Positions 9,958 to 63,407 of a stretch of DNA of 64,000 bases are shown here, one piece after another. A program made the translations under genes and the position numbers. The stretch spans positions 62,001-126,000 of the forward strand of contig NZ_CP159307.1 of assembly GCF_040448695.1 (NCBI RefSeq), written 5' to 3'. Source of the DNA: Dehalogenimonas sp. 4OHTPN (lineage in GTDB: Bacteria > Chloroflexota > Dehalococcoidia > Dehalococcoidales > Dehalococcoidaceae). The notes below the pieces were generated by a model, which saw only the letters and a list, made by a program, of their open reading frames with translations, was not told where the DNA came from and ran no database searches. Position 1 is the first letter of the stretch; every line of letters begins with the position of its first letter.

Positions 9958-10890
9958 ATGACGAGTGGCTTTCGTAATCCATACGAATACCCGGTTTCGC
10001 GGGCTGTCACCTTACCCCTCGCATCCGCAAACGGTTTACGACGGCTCGCTGTCGGCTTCAAGAATCCCCCGGACATAGCGCTGCCCGTCTCCCCCGCTAC
10101 CGCCGTCTGCTACCTACCCCCGGCTCAACAACACCAGGCGTTGGTGATTCTAGCCCATGGAGTTGGCGACACCAGCGCCATACCGTGTCACCTGCTTGCG
10201 AAAGCTCTGGCCCGGACGGGAATCGCCGGACTGGTTCTGCATCTGCCAATCCATTCACGAAGACTCAATCCGGAATTTAAAAAGAGGTTCTACAACCTGA
10301 CTCGGGAGGAGTGGTTTGAATTATACCGAATCTCAGTGATTAACATCCGCCAGGCCTTAGATTGGGCTGCCAGCAGGCCGGAACTGGACCCTGAACACAT
10401 AGGCATTTCCGGTGTCAGTTTCGGTGGCTACGTTGCCGCCATCGCGCTGGGTCTTGACTCAAGGCTGAAGGCTGGCGCTATTCTTCTGTCGGCCGGGAAC
10501 CTAGGAAAACTTGCCTGGAGCCGGTCAAGCCGCCGATACGGCAAGTGGGATATTTCCGAAGGGGTGTTTAAGCAGGAACAGGCTGAATATTTCAAATATG
10601 TGGATACAGTTACAAATCAGGGGTTTGAGAGTGTGCTGCCGTCTCATCCCGCGTACCTTTTCGACCCCTATACCTTCGTTGCCGCTATTAAGACCAAACC
10701 TACTTTACTCGTAAATGCTTTATGGGACGAGTATTTTCCGAAGGAAGCAGCCAGAGAATTCGGAGAAGCTGCGGGTTGTCCAGAACAATTATGGCTGCCA
10801 ACCGGGCATGCCACTGCCTGGCTGTTTTATCCAATCATCCGCAACCGCGTTGTCAGCTTATTCCGCAACTCGTTTAATGATCCCAACTGA
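9958..10890 (+). CDS. Alpha/beta hydrolase
   Basis: Cytoplasmic alpha/beta-hydrolase fold protein of 310 aa with no signal peptide. The nucleophile elbow is GVSFGG (GXSXG, near residue 163). An acidic residue in LWDEYFP (near 259) and the His of TGHATAW (near 282) complete a plausible triad. The region VILAHGVGDTS (about 62-72) is the oxyanion-hole strand. Esterases, dienelactone hydrolases and deacetylases share this fold, so the substrate is not assigned. Its 3' end overlaps the convergent arsC gene by 17 bp. Confidence 0.82.
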   Translation: MTSGFRNPYEYPVSRAVTLPLASANGLRRLAVGFKNPPDIALPVSPATAVCYLPPAQQHQALVILAHGVGDTSAIPCHLLAKALARTGIAGLVLHLPIHSRRLNPEFKKRFYNLTREEWFELYRISVINIRQALDWAASRPELDPEHIGISGVSFGGYVAAIALGLDSRLKAGAILLSAGNLGKLAWSRSSRRYGKWDISEGVFKQEQAEYFKYVDTVTNQGFESVLPSHPAYLFDPYTFVAAIKTKPTLLVNALWDEYFPKEAAREFGEAAGCPEQLWLPTGHATAWLFYPIIRNRVVSLFRNSFNDPN

Positions 10891-11308
10891 TATCAGGTTT
10901 ACTGCTCGGGCTAATCGGTTTGGTGCCCATACCTTCTAAGAGGAGAATGACCCGCTTCTTTATCTCGTCGCGAATCTTCCTGACCTCGGTGAAGTCTTTT
11001 CCCATGGGGTCGGGCAGCGCCCAATCTTCATGCGGAGCATTCACCACCGGGCAGCCGTCCATGCAGCCCATCGTGATGACTTTCTCGACGCCCTGAGCCA
11101 TCTCGAAGGTTAGAGCCCGCGGCAGGCTCTGTGACAGGTCGAAACCCAGCTCCCTCATCGCTTCGACGACGGCCGGGTTGACTGATTGCCCCGGCTCAGT
11201 GCCGGCAGACTCGGCTATTGCCTGATCACCAGCGTAGCGGTTGAAGAAAGCCTCGGCCATCTTGGACCGCCCGGAGTTGTGGATGCAGACAAACAACACC
11301 CTTCTCAC
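10874..11308 (-). CDS. arsC: Arsenate reductase, thioredoxin-coupled low-molecular-weight phosphatase type
   Basis: Reduces arsenate to arsenite. The P-loop CIHNSGRS (CX5R) near the N-terminus binds the oxyanion. The two further cysteines of the disulfide relay lie in GCMDGCPV, and the loop WALPDP supplies the general-acid Asp. I place the start at the GTG at 11308 (LVRRVLFVCIHN), about 8 nt after GGAGAGG, giving 144 aa; the frame stays open to 11383. It lies 127 bp downstream of phoU on the same strand, so it may be read through from the pst operon. That fits because arsenate enters cells through phosphate transporters. Confidence 0.9.
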   Translation of the reverse strand: MRRVLFVCIHNSGRSKMAEAFFNRYAGDQAIAESAGTEPGQSVNPAVVEAMRELGFDLSQSLPRALTFEMAQGVEKVITMGCMDGCPVVNAPHEDWALPDPMGKDFTEVRKIRDEIKKRVILLLEGMGTKPISPSSKPDISWDH

Positions 11309-11435
11309 CAACCCCGCCTCTCCATTCGAAATTCTGGGCACCTGATTCCAAACAGCGGTACCAATTAGTTCAACAGCGACCAACCGAAAGTTTTTTCATC
11401 TTCAGGCGCCCCGCGGCGACTAGGATGCTGGATGA

Positions 11436-12095
11436 CTAATATTTGCCGGCAATCTCTTCCTGCTTGCCGGTGACCACGAACACCACCCGCTCACAGATGT
11501 TGGTTACCCGGTCAGCGGAGCGCTCCAGGTTATGGGCTGCCCAGATGAGCCGGGTAGCCCGGCTGACCGTTTTGGGGTCCTCAGCCATGAAGAAAAGTAA
11601 CTCACGGAAGATCTGGTCGTAAAGGGCGTCGACCTCGTCATCCTCGTTGGTGACCACCCGCGCGGCTTCAGCGTCCCGCTTAATGAAAGCGTCCAGCGCT
11701 CGGTGCAGCATGTCAGCCGTTTTTTCCGACATCCGCGGCAAGTCGATCAGCGGCTTAAGCGGCGGCTCCTCGCCCAGCATAATAGCAATCTTGGCATTGC
11801 CGGCGGCATGATCGCCGATACGCTCCAGGTCAATGATGATATTTAGGACAGCTACAATGATCCGCAGGTCCCGGGCCATCGGCGCCTGGGTAGCGATGAG
11901 GTGGATGCAATCTTCTTCGATCTCGTAGCGTTTGACATTGATAAAATCGTCGTCCGCTACCAGCTTGCGGGCCAGTTCGATGTCGCGGTTTCTCATCGCC
12001 TCCATCGATAGGTCTATAGCTTTCTCCACCATGCTGCCCAATACCAGGACCTTGTCCTGGAGTTGTTTTAAGTTGCGCTCGTAATCGACTCTCAT
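11436..12095 (-). CDS. phoU: Phosphate uptake regulator PhoU
   Basis: Three-helix-bundle repeat protein of 219 aa that links the Pst transporter to the PhoR kinase and restrains the Pho response when phosphate is ample. Two PhoU repeats are seen, each with the metal-site signature (DDDFINVKRYEIEE near residue 49 and DDEVDALYDQIFRE near 150). It follows pstB after 15 bp as the last gene of the pst operon, the classic order. Confidence 0.95.
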   Translation of the reverse strand: MRVDYERNLKQLQDKVLVLGSMVEKAIDLSMEAMRNRDIELARKLVADDDFINVKRYEIEEDCIHLIATQAPMARDLRIIVAVLNIIIDLERIGDHAAGNAKIAIMLGEEPPLKPLIDLPRMSEKTADMLHRALDAFIKRDAEAARVVTNEDDEVDALYDQIFRELLFFMAEDPKTVSRATRLIWAAHNLERSADRVTNICERVVFVVTGKQEEIAGKY

Positions 12096-12110: not shown

Positions 12111-12941
12111 TTAGCCGAAACGGCCGGTAATGTAGTCCTCGGTACGCTTGTCGCGGGGGTTGGTGAACAGGTCGGTGGTCGGTCCGTATTCGACGAGCGT
12201 ACCCGAACGATCGTCGTCGACCATCATGAAGGCCGTCATATCCGAGACGCGGGCTGCCTGCTGCATATTGTGGGTTACGATGACGATAGTATAGGTACAG
12301 GCCAGGGTGCGCATCAAGTCCTCAATCTTTAAAGTGGCAATTGGGTCCAGCGCCGAACATGGCTCATCCATCAGGATGACTTCTGGCTCCACCGCCAGCA
12401 CCCGGGCGATGCAGACGCGCTGCTGCTGGCCGCCGGAGATGGACAGGCCAGACTGGCCCAGTTTATCTTTGACCTCATCCCAGATAGCGGCCTGGCGTAA
12501 ACTTTTCTCGACGATCTCTTCCAGCACATGCTTCTTACGGATGCCGTGGCGACGCGGCCCGTAGGCGACATTGTCGAAGATGGACATGGGAAAAGGATTG
12601 GGCTTCTGGAAAACCATGCCGATGCGCTTCCTGAGTTCTACCACGTCGACATCCCTGTGAAAAATGTCCGCACCGTCGAACTCCACAAGTCCCTCGGTGC
12701 GGGCAGACGGAATAAGATCGTTCATACGGTTGAACTGCCGCAGCAGCGAAGACTTGCCGCAGCCGGAGGGCCCGATAATGGCGGTTATACCGCAGGCCGG
12801 GATGTCCAGGGTCACGTCCTTGAGCGCCCGGAAGTGGCCATAATAAAGGTTGACCTTTTCGGTTCGCAGCTTGCCGGTTCCGGGGACGCAACCGCAGGCG
12901 ATGGATTCTTTTTCGGCGGTAATGGAAGGTCTGACGTCCAT
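12111..12941 (-). CDS. pstB: Phosphate ABC transporter ATP-binding protein
   Basis: ATPase subunit of the high-affinity phosphate importer, 276 aa. Walker [10 protein letters not shown] (near residue 58), the ABC signature [10 protein letters not shown] (near 165), Walker [14 protein letters not shown] and the switch His in VTHNMQQA are all present. It pairs with PstC and PstA at the inner face of the membrane. It starts 4 bp after the pstA stop and is followed by phoU. Confidence 0.97.
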
Positions 12942-12945
12942 ATGA

Positions 12946-13800
12946 TTACCTCTTGCGGGTCTTTACGCGTATTACGGCGACCACTATGTTGAACAACAGC
13001 ACCATCGTCACGAGCACCAGCGCTACCCCCCACATCACCTCCCGCGGCATACCCGGGACGTGAGCCGATACGGTATAGAGGTGGTATGGCAAAGCCATGA
13101 AACGGTCAAAGGGCGAAGTCGGCAGGTTGGGTACCAGGAAGGCGGCGCCGACGACAAGTATCGGCGCTGTCTCGCCGGCGGCCCGGCTCATGGCCAGGAT
13201 GGCGCCGGTCAGAATGCCGGGAGAAGCCTCCGGCAGCACAGCGTGGCGGATAGTTTGCCACCTGGAAACGCCAATGGCCAGAGAGCCGTCCCGATATTCC
13301 TTTGGTACAGCGATGATGGCCTCTCTGGAGGTTGTAATGGTCATGGCCAGTGCCTGCGCAGCCAGGGTTAAAGAAGCGGCGATAAGCGAAAGTCCCATGT
13401 CGAGTGCCAGGACGAAGACCGCCAAGCCGAATAGGCCGAACACAATGCTAGGAACGCCGGCCAGATTGATAATAGCCAGGTTGATAAGCCGGGTCAGCCA
13501 GTTGTCCCGGGCGTATTCAGCCAGGTAGATGCCGGCCATAACGCCGATGGGCAGGGCTATAAGGATGGTGCCCAGCATGAGGTAGGCGGTACCGATGATG
13601 GCCGGCAGAATACCGCCGGCTCTGCCTGCCTGTGACGGACCCTGGCTGATGAAGTCCCATGAGATAACGCTGTAGCCGGAAGTAACCATGTAGATAAGGA
13701 TCAGGATGATCGGAATAACGACGACCAGCATGGCCGTAAACAACAGACTCATGGCGGCTTTCTGGGTCAGCTGCCTCGATCTCAGGTTTGACATCGTCAT
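12946..13800 (-). CDS. pstA: Phosphate ABC transporter permease PstA
   Basis: Membrane permease of 284 aa with about six transmembrane helices, the first at residues 15-40. The EAA-type coupling motif ([25 protein letters not shown] region, near residue 170) contacts PstB. It starts 18 bp after the pstC stop. Together with PstC it forms the phosphate channel. Confidence 0.96.
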
Positions 13801-13818: not shown

Positions 13819-14754
13819 TTAATTTCTGGCGAACTTGCGCTTTTGGGCGTCCAGGACTCGGGCGGCGATGAAATTGACCAAAAGGGTCAGCATGAACAGG
13901 ACCAGACCTATAGCGAACAGGGCTTTGTATACCGGACCGCCGACCACCGCATTGCCGATGCCCGAAGCCACGGCCGCAGTCATCGGCATCATCGGTGTGA
14001 AGGGATTATTCGGCACCGCCAGCGCGCCGCCGGCCACCATCAGCACCGTCATCGTTTCACCGATAGCCCGGCCAACGCCGAGCATGATAGCCGCCGAGAC
14101 GCCGGACAGGGCCGAGGGGAGGCACACGTGCCAGATAGTCTCCCACTTGGTAGCTCCCAGCCCATATGACGCCTGCCGGTACTCGTCTGGCACCGCCCGC
14201 AAGGCGTCTTCCGAAACCGAGACAATGACCGGCAGGCTCATCATGGCCAGCATGATGCCGGCAGTGAAACCGGTCAGCCCGGTGTTGAGGCCGAGGGTGT
14301 TCTGCACCCAGGGCGAAAGAAGCAGCAAGCCGATGAAACCCATGACCACCGACGGGAAGCCGGAAAGGAGTTCGACCAGCGGCTTGACCGTATCCGAGAC
14401 TCGGCGTGGCGCCACTTCGGCCAGGTAAACGGCGCAGCCGACGCCCACAGGCACGGCAAGAAGGGTGGATACCCCAGTGACCCATAGGGTGGCTACGAAG
14501 AACTGACGGATACCTAACACTGGCGGTTCGGAGAACGGCAACCAGCGGTCCCCCGTGAGGAATTCCCAGGGTGAGGTCTGGAACAAAGCCGGCAGACCCT
14601 GCTGCAGCAGGATAGCAAAGACACCCACAAGCACAACGATGGCCAGTAGACCGGTGAAGCGGATGGCCAGTTCGATCACCTGCTCCAACGGGCGACGGCG
14701 TTTACGCAAACTCGCAGTGGTGCCGATAACCCGGCCTACCTGGGAATTAACCAC
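13819..14754 (-). CDS. pstC: Phosphate ABC transporter permease PstC
   Basis: Permease with six predicted transmembrane helices and the coupling region RQASYGLGATKWETIWHVCLP. The open frame extends to 14934, but the extra 60 codons overlap the upstream thioesterase gene and look nothing like PstC. The GTG at 14754 comes one base after that gene's TAG stop, implying translational coupling. It yields 311 aa, a normal PstC length. The first helix then begins near residue 30. Confidence 0.93.
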   Translation of the reverse strand: MVNSQVGRVIGTTASLRKRRRPLEQVIELAIRFTGLLAIVVLVGVFAILLQQGLPALFQTSPWEFLTGDRWLPFSEPPVLGIRQFFVATLWVTGVSTLLAVPVGVGCAVYLAEVAPRRVSDTVKPLVELLSGFPSVVMGFIGLLLLSPWVQNTLGLNTGLTGFTAGIMLAMMSLPVIVSVSEDALRAVPDEYRQASYGLGATKWETIWHVCLPSALSGVSAAIMLGVGRAIGETMTVLMVAGGALAVPNNPFTPMMPMTAAVASGIGNAVVGGPVYKALFAIGLVLFMLTLLVNFIAARVLDAQKRKFARN

Positions 14755-14755
14755 G

Positions 14756-15151
14756 CTAGACGATACCCGCTGTTGAAGTTGAACAATCGGCCGCCGGTTG
14801 GGTGATAGGTTGTTTTTTACCGTCGCGGTCGACGCTGACGAAAGTGATTCGGGTCTCAAAGAGAATGGTTTCCGGGCAGGCATGCCGCCGGGTGCCGAAA
14901 ACTTGAACCTTATACTGCACCGAGGTGTTGCCAAGGCCGGCGCGTTCGACGTCGAATCGGATGATCTCGCCGCCGGCCACCGGGTGGTGAAAGGCTACGT
15001 TGTCCAAAGCGATGGTGACGAGGCGGTTGCCCGGAAACTCCTGGTTAGCGGTGATATAAGCAAACTCGTCTATCCATTTCAGCATGTTGCCGCCGAAAAG
15101 AAAGCCGTCGTGGTTCAGGTGTTCCGGCAGAATCAGTTTGTAGTGGTCCAC
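14756..15151 (-). CDS. Acyl-CoA thioesterase, hotdog fold
   Basis: Hotdog-fold thioesterase of 131 aa, YciA/acyl-CoA hydrolase type. The pattern HDGFLFGGNMLKWIDEFAYI at residues 14-33 forms the central helix with the catalytic acidic residue. FHHPVAGGEIIRF and FVSVDRDGKK are the characteristic strands. It hydrolyses acyl-CoA esters in the cytoplasm. Its position is odd: it sits between pstS and pstC on the same strand, and its stop is one base from the pstC start. A phosphate-related function is not known for this family. Confidence 0.85.
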   Translation of the reverse strand: MDHYKLILPEHLNHDGFLFGGNMLKWIDEFAYITANQEFPGNRLVTIALDNVAFHHPVAGGEIIRFDVERAGLGNTSVQYKVQVFGTRRHACPETILFETRITFVSVDRDGKKQPITQPAADCSTSTAGIV

Positions 15152-15272: not shown

Positions 15273-16193
15273 CTACTTCAGGGCGACGAAACCTTCTTCT
15301 TCAACGATCTTCTGGCCGGCTGCCGACAAGGCGTAGTCTATGAAGGCTTTGGTCAGACCAGTGGGTTCACCAGCGGTGTAGTAGTACAGGTATCGGGAGA
15401 TCGGGTAGCTGCCGTCTTTGGCAGTAACCAGCGTCGGGGCTACGGCGGGGGACTCAGCGGTCTTTTTGATGGTCAGCGTCTTGACGGCGCTGGTAACGTA
15501 CCCCAGGCCGGAGTAGAAGATGGCGTTGGCGTTCTGGGCTACCTGGGTGATACCGACCTCAGTGGAGGGCAGCAGCTGTGCTCTGGTGGAAAACTGCAGG
15601 GTCTTGTCCTGCTTACCGGCGATCAGTTTCTGAACGACCTCTTCCAGGAAGTAGGCGTAGGTGCCGGAGTTGGTGTCACGGGACAGGATAACGATGGGGG
15701 CGTTGTTGCCGCCAACCTGGTTCCAGTTTGTAACCTTGCCGGTATATATGTCGGAAAGCTGTTCGATGGTGAGGGTACTGACCGGATTTGATGGATGGAC
15801 AACAATGGACAGGGCGTCGAGAGCTACCTTGGTCTCCACCACGGTTACGCCATTAGCTTTGGCCTGGTCGATCTCGGACTGCTTGATCGGCCGGGATGAC
15901 TGGGCGAAAGTGGTAGTCTTATTGATCAGGGCGGCGATGCCGGCGGAAGAGCCGGGACCGGCCACGGTGATGTTGACGTTTTTGTGGAGCTTCATAAACT
16001 CCTCAGCCCAGCGGGTACTGACCGGGGTGACGGTGTTGGAGCCGATAATATCCAGGGTGCCGGACAAAGTGTCGCCCGGGGCGGTCGTCTGACCGCCGCC
16101 GCTGTCACCACCGCAGCCGGTCAGGCCGACGGTCAGGGCAAGGATGAGAGTCAGGGACAAGACTATACATTTCTTGAAACCAGTTGTTTTCAA
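15273..16193 (-). CDS. pstS: Phosphate-binding lipoprotein PstS
   Basis: Extracellular substrate-binding protein of the Pst importer, 306 aa. The signal peptide ends in the lipobox LTGC with Cys27. The PstS signatures are clear: IIGSNTVTPVSTRWAEEF near residue 50 and the phosphate-contact loop GPGSSAGIAALI near 80. The strand VILSRDTNSGTYAYFLE lies near 168. It follows mgsA after 25 bp and is therefore placed second in the Pho-controlled operon. Confidence 0.96.
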   Translation of the reverse strand: MKTTGFKKCIVLSLTLILALTVGLTGCGGDSGGGQTTAPGDTLSGTLDIIGSNTVTPVSTRWAEEFMKLHKNVNITVAGPGSSAGIAALINKTTTFAQSSRPIKQSEIDQAKANGVTVVETKVALDALSIVVHPSNPVSTLTIEQLSDIYTGKVTNWNQVGGNNAPIVILSRDTNSGTYAYFLEEVVQKLIAGKQDKTLQFSTRAQLLPSTEVGITQVAQNANAIFYSGLGYVTSAVKTLTIKKTAESPAVAPTLVTAKDGSYPISRYLYYYTAGEPTGLTKAFIDYALSAAGQKIVEEEGFVALK

Positions 16194-16218: not shown

Positions 16219-16662
16219 TTACAGGGCCGAGACGACCCCGGTTAAGAAACGCGACCGGATTGACAGTTCGCTGATAATTTCCGGGTGATCGAAGATAAGA
16301 TGCAGTACCGCCTCGGCGGTGGTCAGGTTAGTTGCCAGCGGCACATTGTGAACGTCGCAAACCCGCAGCAGTGCGGTGACGTCGGGTTCGTGGGGCTGGA
16401 CGGTTAAGGGATCGCGCAGGAAGATGACCGCCCTGACCACGCCGGAAGCCACTAGGGAGCCGATTTGCTGGTCGCCGCCCATTGGGCCGGACTGCATCAG
16501 GGTGACAGCCAGATCAGTGCGGGCCTGAATCAAGAGGCCAGTGGAGCGGGTGGCCACCAGCGACAGCTTTGACAGCTCTTCCCTGTGATCCTTGACCAGG
16601 GACAGCATCTCTTCTTTCTTGTTATCGTGGGCGATAAGTGCCAGGGTGATGTTAGGTGCCAT
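16219..16662 (-). CDS. mgsA: Methylglyoxal synthase
   Basis: Converts dihydroxyacetone phosphate to methylglyoxal and releases phosphate; characterised enzymes are inhibited by phosphate. The 147-aa form starting at the ATG at 16662 (GAGGTG just upstream) begins MAPNITLALIAHDNKK. Conserved elements are ATRSTG (usual form ATGTTG), SGPMGGDQQIG with the catalytic Asp, FLRDPL and NVPLATN. The frame is open to 16722, but that extension overlaps the promoter. It is the first gene behind the Pho-type promoter at 16707-16762, ahead of pstS, which suggests that it is made when phosphate is scarce. Confidence 0.92.
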   Translation of the reverse strand: MAPNITLALIAHDNKKEEMLSLVKDHREELSKLSLVATRSTGLLIQARTDLAVTLMQSGPMGGDQQIGSLVASGVVRAVIFLRDPLTVQPHEPDVTALLRVCDVHNVPLATNLTTAEAVLHLIFDHPEIISELSIRSRFLTGVVSAL

Positions 16663-16706: not shown

Positions 16707-16762
16707 AGTATAACTCCGGCACTTTAAAGCGCCTTTAAGAAAGGATTAAAGATTTGTTAAAG
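16707..16762 (-). promoter_or_regulatory. Pho-box promoter of the mgsA-pst operon
   Basis: Four copies of CTTTAA-like hexamers (TTAAAG, TTAAGA, TTAAAG, TTAAAG on the plus strand) start at 16724, 16735, 16746 and 16757, an exact 11-bp period. The nearest copy ends 11 bp before a TATACT -10 box (16712 to 16707, minus strand). PhoB/PhoP-type regulators bind direct repeats with 11-bp phasing in place of a -35 box, so the layout fits activation by the PhoB encoded next door. Repeats and spacing are read directly; the regulator is inferred. Confidence 0.82.
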
Positions 16763-16954: not shown

Positions 16955-18286
16955 CTATCCGGGCAGGGTGAAAGTGAACTTTGCTCCCTTGCTTGGGGCG
17001 CTTTCGGCGCGGAGGTCGCCGCCGTGGGCCTGGACGATGTGCTTGGCGATGGCCAGACCTAGGCCGGTACCACCGCCGGAACGGGCCTTGTCCGCTTTGT
17101 AGAAACGCTCGAAGATGCGCGGCAGGTCGTCAGGCGAAATGCCGACGCCGGTGTCTTTGACAGAAATCTCTACGCCTTTGGATGTCGCCGCGGCGGTCAC
17201 GACGATTTTTCCATCAGGCGGGGTGAACTTTATAGCGTTGTGTATCAGATTGACCAGCACCTGCTCAATACGGTCTGCGTCGGCAGGTACCGATTTGAGG
17301 TTCGGTGCCGCCTCAACAACCAGGGCTAATTTCGCCCGGTCGGCCTGAGGCCGCAGCCGCTCGACGACCCGCTCGATGAATGGGCCAATGTCCAGTGATT
17401 TTTTTTGCAGCGCCGCCTCGCCGCTTTCGATGCGTGAAAGTTCGCCCAGTTCGCGTACCATCTGGGTCAATTTATCGGTCTCCACCTCGATGCGGCCGAG
17501 GAAGTCAGCGGCCACCGCCGGGTCGTCGCAGGCGCCGGCTTTCAAGGTTTCGGCTAGCAATTTCAAAGATGCCAGCGGGGTACGCAGCTCGTGCGAGATG
17601 TTAGCCACGAAGTCACGGCGCACCCGTTCCAGGCGTTTGATCTCGGTCAGATCGCGGATGACCATAACCGCCCCGGGCTCGCCAGGCAGCGGAGACACGG
17701 TCACGCCGTAAACACGGCGGCTTGGCCGAACTTCAACGGCGCCCTCCTGTTGGCTGCCGCTCGAGAGGCATCTTTTAAGCAGAGAGTCGAATTCGTGATC
17801 ACGTACCGCCTCAATGAAGGTGTGTCCGATGGCCTTGTCTTTGAGGTGGAACATCCTCTCGGCTGCCTGGTTTAGGTGGACGATCTCTCCGTGTCGGTCA
17901 ACCATAATGATGGCATCGGCTACGCTTTGAAGCATCAGCTCCAGGTGGGAGAGCTCGGCAGTGGCCTGCCGCATCCGGTCGCCGACGCGCTTGGCCATCT
18001 CGTTAAAGGCGTGCTTGACATCAGCCAGTTCGCCTATAGCTACCAGGCGCACCTTGTCCGGCGATTCCCCGCCACCCAGCTTCTTCATAGCCACCTCAAG
18101 TTCAATCTCGTCGTCGCTCATTGAGGGCACCTGGAGGTAAATAACCACCGACACCGCCAGTGCCGCAACGGTACCGGCAATGAGCAGCGTCAAGTCGTAA
18201 CCTCGCACTGCGCCAACCACCAGAAAGACAGCAGCCAGGGTGAGCACGGTGGAAATGATCAGGCGGCGGACGGATTGGTCTGTCAT
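16955..18286 (-). CDS. phoR: Phosphate-regulon sensor histidine kinase PhoR
   Basis: Membrane sensor kinase of 443 aa. Two transmembrane helices lie at about 8-28 and 33-52 with almost no extracellular loop, as in PhoR proteins that sense through the Pst/PhoU complex. A HAMP-like segment (about 60-105) and a PAS domain (about 115-215) follow. The phosphoacceptor is His232 in ANISHELRTPLAS, and the ATPase domain has NLIHNAIKFT, DTGVGI and GGTGLGLAI. The ATG overlaps the phoB TGA by one base, so the pair is co-translated. Confidence 0.94.
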   Translation of the reverse strand: MTDQSVRRLIISTVLTLAAVFLVVGAVRGYDLTLLIAGTVAALAVSVVIYLQVPSMSDDEIELEVAMKKLGGGESPDKVRLVAIGELADVKHAFNEMAKRVGDRMRQATAELSHLELMLQSVADAIIMVDRHGEIVHLNQAAERMFHLKDKAIGHTFIEAVRDHEFDSLLKRCLSSGSQQEGAVEVRPSRRVYGVTVSPLPGEPGAVMVIRDLTEIKRLERVRRDFVANISHELRTPLASLKLLAETLKAGACDDPAVAADFLGRIEVETDKLTQMVRELGELSRIESGEAALQKKSLDIGPFIERVVERLRPQADRAKLALVVEAAPNLKSVPADADRIEQVLVNLIHNAIKFTPPDGKIVVTAAATSKGVEISVKDTGVGISPDDLPRIFERFYKADKARSGGGTGLGLAIAKHIVQAHGGDLRAESAPSKGAKFTFTLPG

Positions 18287-18981
18287 CAGCCCTCGAATTT
18301 GTAGCCCAGACCGCGCACAGTCACCAGGTGCTTCGGCCGGGACGGTTCAACTTCGATTTTTTGCCGCAGCCAGCGTACATGGACATCTACTGTACGGGAG
18401 TCGCCGGGATAATCTGAACCCCAGACGCGGTCAAGCAAAGTGTCGCGGGAGAAGGCCAGCCCGCGGTTGGTCATGAAGAAACTCAAAAGGTCGAACTCCC
18501 GGGGAGTGACGTCAACCGCTTGGCCGCCGACAGATAACCGATGGCGCGCCTGGTCAACTTCGACGTCGCCCGCCTTGAGCACCGAACCTTCCCGCTGCGA
18601 TACCGCATCGAGGCGGGCCAGTTCGCCACGACGCAGCATCGCCTTGACCCGGGCTAAAAGTTCACGCATAGAGAATGGCTTGGTGAGATAGTCGTCGGCG
18701 CCCAATTCCAGTCCAAGAACCTTGTCAATCTCTTCGCTGCGGGCAGTCAGCATCAGAACCGGAGTCGAAAACTCCCGCCGCAACAGTCGGGTCAGTTCGA
18801 AGCCGTCCATGCCCGGCAACATAACGTCCATAATCACGGCGTCGGGCTTTTCGCGGCGGATTAACTCCAGTCCGGCAACGCCGTCGGCGGCGGTGAAAAC
18901 AGCAAACCCCTCCCGGCTCAGGTTGTATTTCACCAATTCGGCGAGGGTCCGGTCGTCCTCGATGACGATGATTGTAGACAT
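18286..18981 (-). CDS. phoB: Phosphate-regulon response regulator PhoB
   Basis: OmpR-family response regulator of 231 aa. The receiver domain (1-120) has Asp9/Asp10, the phosphorylation site Asp52 (VIMDVMLPG) and Lys101 (LTKPF). The winged-helix domain (about 130-231) includes TPREFDLLSFF and the recognition region SRTVDVHVRWLRQKIE. It forms an operon with phoR and is the inferred activator of the mgsA-pst promoter. Confidence 0.94.
   Translation of the reverse strand: MSTIIVIEDDRTLAELVKYNLSREGFAVFTAADGVAGLELIRREKPDAVIMDVMLPGMDGFELTRLLRREFSTPVLMLTARSEEIDKVLGLELGADDYLTKPFSMRELLARVKAMLRRGELARLDAVSQREGSVLKAGDVEVDQARHRLSVGGQAVDVTPREFDLLSFFMTNRGLAFSRDTLLDRVWGSDYPGDSRTVDVHVRWLRQKIEVEPSRPKHLVTVRGLGYKFEG

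Positions 18982-60878: not shown

Positions 60879-63407
<2,529 letters not shown>

Follow-up and report, generated by a model that had tools for sequence, protein, structure and literature searches.

Dehalogenimonas sp. 4OHTPN carries, upstream of a methylglyoxal synthase gene, a short series of similar hexamers next to a possible -10 element. This locus raises the question of whether we are dealing with a promoter under phosphate control and, if so, how far the same element extends among related bacteria. We have studied it in a window of 64,000 nt (positions 62001–126000 of a single-contig genome of 1.75 Mb). Positions are those of the window unless another source is given.

The repeats and their spacing

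On the plus strand TTAAAG is read directly in the sequence at 16724–16729, 16746–16751 and 16757–16762, and the remaining hexamer, TTAAGA at 16735–16740, has one mismatch to it. AGTATA at 16707–16712 is TATACT on the minus strand, and 11 nt (16713–16723) separate it from the first hexamer. A sequence-only reading had reported TTAAAG-like hexamers at 16724, 16735, 16746 and 16757 with a TATACT 11 bp beyond; the repeats are real and lie exactly at these places. It was silent on the strand: the predicted promoter would fire on the minus strand. A plus-strand reading with TTAAAG as the unit was rejected, since the genes, the -10 element and the conservation all belong to the minus strand. In minus-strand order the element is CTTTAACAAAT-CTTTAATCCTT-TCTTAAAGGCG-CTTTAA(AGTGC), with its units in exact 11-bp register and TATACT 11 nt past the last CTTTAA. 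It has the direct repeats of 11-bp period that characterize a Pho box, the operator of PhoB, PhoP or SphR. Its distance from the -10 element also agrees with a box which lies about 10–11 bp upstream of it and replaces the -35 element. A sigma-70 -35/-10 pair or a -35-like hexamer was sought on the minus strand and none was found.

The four-unit pattern has one match in the window, with 2 mismatches, against none in 100 dinucleotide shuffles. Pairs of units are less demanding: with 2 mismatches there are 8 matches in the window against 2.3 expected, and five of the eight are the site upstream of mgsA. We have also used a tandem test which requires no motif. In the phoR-mgsA intergenic region its top score is 25 out of 28 at period 11, and the remaining periods between 7 and 15 give 19–20; 25 is never reached, at any of these periods, in 1000 dinucleotide shuffles of this region.

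Table 1. Features of the repeat region and of the neighbouring genes in the window
Feature	Positions	Strand	Basis
Predicted Pho repeat unit 1, CTTTAACAAAT	16752–16762	-	pattern match; conserved in relatives
Predicted Pho repeat unit 2, CTTTAATCCTT	16741–16751	-	pattern match; conserved in relatives
Predicted Pho repeat unit 3, TCTTAAAGGCG (class consensus CYTTAA)	16730–16740	-	pattern match; conserved in relatives
Predicted Pho repeat unit 4, CTTTAAAGTGC	16719–16729	-	pattern match; conserved in relatives
Predicted -10 element TATACT, 11 nt beyond last CTTTAA	16707–16712	-	gap kept at 80/96 phosphate-gene sites
mgsA, methylglyoxal synthase, first gene of the operon	16219–16662	-	TIGR00160 170.4 bits (cut-off 146.9); PDB methylglyoxal synthases
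pstS, phosphate-binding lipoprotein	15273–16193	-	TIGR02136 276.5 bits (cut-off 206.6)
4HBT thioesterase gene, within the operon	14756–15151	-	PF03061
pstC	13819–14934	-	TIGR02138 280.2 bits (cut-off 196.45)
pstA	12946–13800	-	TIGR00974 266.6 bits (cut-off 193.45)
pstB	12111–12941	-	TIGR00972 395.2 bits (cut-off 343.2)
phoU	11436–12095	-	TIGR02135 205.8 bits (cut-off 130.25)
ArsC-like / low-molecular-weight phosphatase gene, end of the operon	10874–11383	-	PF01451
PhoR-like histidine kinase, upstream of the box	16955–18286	-	NF046044 PnpS 345.3 bits (cut-off 400); TIGR02966 PhoR 286.4 bits (cut-off 334.2)
PhoB-like OmpR-family response regulator, putative binder of the box	18286–18981	-	PF00072 and PF00486; TIGR02154 PhoB 234.7 bits (cut-off 296.2)

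The operon and the regulator genes

The genes around the repeats are listed in Table 1. In minus-strand order we find the response regulator, the histidine kinase, a gap of 292 nt which contains the box, and then mgsA, pstS, a thioesterase gene, pstC, pstA, pstB, phoU and the ArsC-like gene, so that the box lies upstream of genes for phosphate uptake. The mgsA product qualifies as a methylglyoxal synthase by model TIGR00160. The listed start of pstC is probably too far upstream, because it makes the gene overlap that of the thioesterase. At the end of the operon all arsenate reductase models score under their cut-offs with the ArsC-like gene. The regulator is called PhoB-like since it falls under the equivalog cut-off of TIGR02154; its top-scoring model is YycF and its best match in the PDB is RegX3 (2oqr). 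For the same reason the kinase is only called PhoR-like: the PnpS and PhoR models are among its best matches, though both stay under their equivalog cut-offs.

Conservation in related genomes

A footprint was made of ten genomes, eight of the same genus as the window and two of a sister genus. Of its 25 invariant columns, 24 belong to the repeats or to the -10 element, and the flanks diverge. The sequence of the units varies among these genomes between CTTTAA and CCTTAAC/ATTTAAC, so the common unit is YTTAAC. Gene order is also kept: mgsA followed by the pst permease genes, pstB, phoU and the ArsC-like gene is found at 7 of the 8 family loci compared, and PstS is recognized at 5 of them. The thioesterase gene changes place. 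It precedes pstC at four of the eight loci and stands between pstB and phoU at two; at the sister-genus loci compared it was not found.

Two genomes of the family have peculiarities of their own. In G005 the middle of the operon has been lost (L107, G005:C1:1598000–1606000): the box is kept, residues 5–34 of MgsA are joined almost directly to the 47 C-terminal residues of PstB, and phoU is fragmented. It is a natural loss of the pst operon. In G008 (L106, G008:C1:1294000–1304000) phoR and mgsA are separated by an alkaline phosphatase gene which has a box of its own; this is the sole PF00245 gene among 11 family genomes.

Distribution in Dehalococcoidia and beyond

Four CYTTAA units in 11-bp steps were searched for in the 156 genomes of the order, up to 3 mismatches being allowed; 51 of them have matches, of which 71 are listed, against 7 in the control. 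An [ACT]YTTAAC-type pattern was applied to a draw of 393 class genomes and matched in 86 of them, against 9 in the control; both control totals are our own sums. At these thresholds 105 of the order genomes and 307 of the class genomes have no match, many of them being incomplete. The first downstream gene was examined at 126 distinct places, after merging register shifts; they include five places outside the class (L221–L225) and leave out about 18 three-mismatch places of the class draw. Genes were assigned by BLASTP against the window proteins (E ≤1e-3), or by Pfam when unlike them. The gene is phosphate-related at 96 places, some of these assignments being weak (22–31% identity), it is not recognized as a phosphate gene at 26, and at four the contig ends. 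Thus the box precedes phosphate-related genes at 96 of the 122 placeable sites: PstS (33 places), MgsA (31), ArsC-like (21), PstB, PstC, DUF47 and Na/Pi cotransporter (2 each), PhoU-like, Pit and alkaline phosphatase (1 each). The share of phosphate genes climbs with the quality of the motif, from 10 of 22 placeable sites with at least 3 mismatches to 86 of 100 with 0–2.

A TATAAT-like hexamer is found exactly 11 nt beyond the box at 80 of the 96 phosphate-gene sites, with T in 89%, A in 92% and the final T in 95% of the sites. The search patterns carried no -10 element, so its presence at this distance gives independent support to a box which replaces the -35 element. The earlier proposal of a tandem Pho-type box with its -10 at a fixed distance is therefore borne out, and the arrangement recurs at phosphate genes of related genomes. 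Nearly every target has four units. Across the class the units follow YTTAAC every 11 bp, the C often missing from units 3 and 4 (CYTTAA); this consensus can be written as about [ACT]YTTAAC-N4-[ACT]YTTAAC-N4-CYTTAA-N5-CYTTAA-N11-TANNNT. Judging from these recurrences the box is class-wide in Dehalococcoidia, as a predicted phosphate switch. The consensus offers a testable rule of phosphate control for a class which includes the organohalide-respiring bacteria of bioremediation, and with it regulon members may be called from DNA alone in uncultivated genomes. One genus (G365, G373 and G309; L200–L210) has many boxes, with 12 matches in G365. Some of them precede genes for pilin-like, TIM-barrel and secreted proteins. 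The many boxes would make up an enlarged regulon.

We have also started from the protein, with 80 MgsA loci from named genomes chosen by protein similarity. Fourteen of them have a box, with up to 4 mismatches, in the 650 bp ahead of mgsA: all 13 loci titled Dehalococcoidia, Dehalococcoidales, Dehalococcoidaceae or Chloroflexi, and one more. PstS or PstC follows within 2.5 kb at 13 of the 14. The other 66 loci, from Bacillota, Meiothermus, Halanaerobiales, Thermotogales, Borreliella and others, have no box (best matches with at least 8 mismatches) and no PstS, PstC or PstA beside mgsA; six have only a match to a PstB-like ATPase. Thus the box and the mgsA-pst linkage co-occur and mark the class. 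The additional locus (L247, JAUWGI010000049.1) comes from a metagenome-assembled genome titled Deltaproteobacteria. It has phoR, box, mgsA and pst as in Dehalococcoidia and a box identical to that of G022; it is probably mis-titled or mis-binned.

Of 254 genomes from outside the class only 5 have a match with up to 2 mismatches, against none in the control, and all five matches (L221–L225) precede phosphate-transport genes. In the family of G656, with genomes of 3–14 Mb, 14 of 29 genomes have 18 matches, the control again having none; genes for a Na/Pi cotransporter, PstB or PstS follow at ten of these places but not at the other eight. In the family of G502 matches appear in 2 of 41 genomes, the same number as in the control. 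A consensus for Chloroflexota had been anticipated. The box is class-wide in Dehalococcoidia and has matches in one large-genome family, but a box common to the whole phylum is unsupported by the pattern used; from these searches the range of the predicted box appears to be Dehalococcoidia and at least one further family of Chloroflexota.

In its own genome the box is found at one operon only. When three units are sought and as many as 3 mismatches are allowed, the genome has 25 matches and the control 22, the mgsA site alone standing out; genome position 747315 has a three-unit match only, with 2 mismatches. The Pit gene of this genome has no box, and at the Pit loci of 11 genomes the best three-unit match has 5–7 mismatches, within the background. 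No box was found in the region upstream of phoB (best match 7 mismatches), and no alkaline phosphatase gene was found in the genome. A regulon of several operons was sought in this genome, but no second box was found. With neither a second box nor an alkaline phosphatase, the regulon may here consist of a single operon. The sequence-only reading had named the absence of similar repeats at other phosphate genes as the result that would count against it: they are indeed absent within this genome, but relatives have them, at the alkaline phosphatase of G008 and at many places in G365 and G373. Pho boxes usually occur at several places of a genome, but this is not what defines the operator.

A second PstS-like gene, 36% identical to pstS, follows a reductive dehalogenase gene in the same genome (L015, 1332635–1336459, at 1334135) with a 4-bp overlap. 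Such genes, 36–39% identical, are found at L010, L011, L015 and L016, and a neighbouring reductive dehalogenase was read in the first three. This paralogue follows a reductive dehalogenase and no Pho box was found at it, which rules it out as a second phosphate operon. By its position this PstS-type protein appears to be a companion of the dehalogenase.

Proposed mechanism and alternatives

We interpret the four 11-bp repeats as a Pho box, the predicted phosphate-starvation switch of the mgsA-pst operon, with a probability of about 0.9; the binder, its phosphorylation, the contact with the polymerase and the response to phosphate we infer as follows. When phosphate is scarce, the PhoR-like kinase would phosphorylate the PhoB-like regulator encoded just upstream. 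The tandem head-to-tail half-sites would take this regulator, two dimers being aligned along the same DNA face. The last unit would occupy the place of the -35 element, and sigma-70 RNA polymerase would be recruited to TATACT, 11 nt away, so that mgsA-pstS-thioesterase-pstC-pstA-pstB-phoU-arsC would be switched on. This scheme is that of PhoB, where tandem direct repeats are occupied head to tail by the phosphorylated regulator, which activates transcription (PMC4415409, PMC1906773).

The box might instead serve a different OmpR-family regulator, similar to WalR, MtrA or RegX3, which would respond to envelope or general stress and have phosphate genes as only a part of its regulon. The scores of the adjacent regulator with YycF and RegX3 would agree with it, as would the boxes which precede genes without a known link to phosphate and the 46.8-fold rise of DET0137, the mgsA of Dehalococcoides mccartyi 195, in solvent shock (PMC4340931). 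We consider it unlikely: phosphate-related genes follow the great majority of placeable sites, a PhoR-like sequence lies within 2 kb upstream at 10 of the 14 box-bearing MgsA loci, and RegX3 is itself part of a phosphate system, SenX3-RegX3 (PMC4415409).

Even less probable is a promoter which serves mgsA itself, for growth arrest or solvent stress, the pst genes being carried along. mgsA is the first gene at about a quarter of the places (31 of 126), and DET0137 has been presented as a biomarker of stress whose purpose is to stop growth (PMC4340931), but the box directly precedes pstS and the ArsC-like gene at 33 and 21 places and, where mgsA is absent, also stands before genes for Pit, Na/Pi cotransport or alkaline phosphatase. 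That AT-rich repeats have come together by chance in front of mgsA is excluded: pairs of units do arise by chance, but the tandem score is not reached in shuffled sequences and the element recurs before phosphate genes, its invariance in relatives being sufficient to refute such an origin.

Comparison with known Pho boxes

The PhoP box of Bacillus subtilis is formed by TTAACA-type repeats. Compared by this consensus, not by sequence, it resembles the class box in its TTAAC core in 11-bp steps. There is a close likeness with the SphR box of cyanobacteria, CTTAACCT, which has 8 bp, a 3-bp linker and at least three tandem copies (PMC1906773). It shares with the class box the 11-bp period of its direct repeats, a (C/T)TTAAC core and a location ahead of pst and phosphatase genes (PMC1906773). 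The box described here differs by having four units instead of three, by units 3 and 4 often without the C and by requiring no CCT tail; its targets include mgsA and the ArsC-like gene. Core and period agree with SphR across the class, but the CCT tail does not, and in the window units 2 to 4 are without the C. The PhoB box of Escherichia coli (CTGTCAT) shares the 11-bp period and a position about 10 bp upstream of the -10 element (PMC4415409, PMC1906773). It differs in its core, TGTCAT instead of TTTAAC; the column frequencies show no TGTCA core in the class, where four units are present at nearly every target. The PhoP box of Streptomyces (GTTCACC) likewise has tandem 11-bp direct repeats, with a different core (PMC4415409).

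The CTTTAA core had been thought to be unlike those of known boxes. This does not hold, as CTTTAA is one divergent case of YTTAAC, nearly the SphR CTTAACCT. Given that the class consensus is near the SphR box, the impression came from a single divergent site, whose first unit does contain TTAAC. In the open-licence literature we have found no description of a Pho box in Dehalococcoidia, and a search for methylglyoxal synthase with pstS and for a TTAACA-type Pho box gave nothing relevant. The excerpted text of PMC10875860 and PMC5736913 describes no Pho box, and that of PMC11497831 deals with an engineered Clostridium. Thus the predicted Pho box in Dehalococcoidia appears to be new; its kind, near the cyanobacterial CTTAACCT, is known.

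Methylglyoxal synthase and the ArsC-like gene

The less expected part of the arrangement is that mgsA often heads the operon behind the box, which ties methylglyoxal synthase to a predicted transcriptional control by phosphate. In G001, which may be D. mccartyi strain 195, the order is box-mgsA-pstS-pstC-pstA-pstB-phoU. If this identification holds, DET0137–DET0139 would be the start of a Pho-box operon, as the gene order suggests. The transcript of DET0137 clusters in solvent shock with those of DET0138 and DET0139; the authors proposed a growth arrest for DET0137 and mentioned phosphate limitation as a condition to which methylglyoxal synthase responds (PMC4340931). They left DET0138 and DET0139 unexplored, since most additional transcripts were annotated as hypothetical (PMC4340931). 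We rate as slightly better than even the following reading. Throughout the class mgsA would be a built-in member of the phosphate-starvation regulon, at the head of the pst operon, so that a shortage of phosphate would call for import and for stripping of phosphate from dihydroxyacetone phosphate, perhaps with slower growth. The 46.8-fold rise would then correspond to induction of the phosphate operon, with DET0138 and DET0139 as pstS and pstC. It suggests a new and checkable interpretation of DET0137, which has been proposed as a field biomarker of solvent stress.

The ArsC-like gene, for a low-molecular-weight phosphatase, often has a box of its own: it is the first gene at the 21 places counted above, for example L063, L083 and L195. 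Its product may protect against arsenate imported by Pst, or it may act as a phosphatase.
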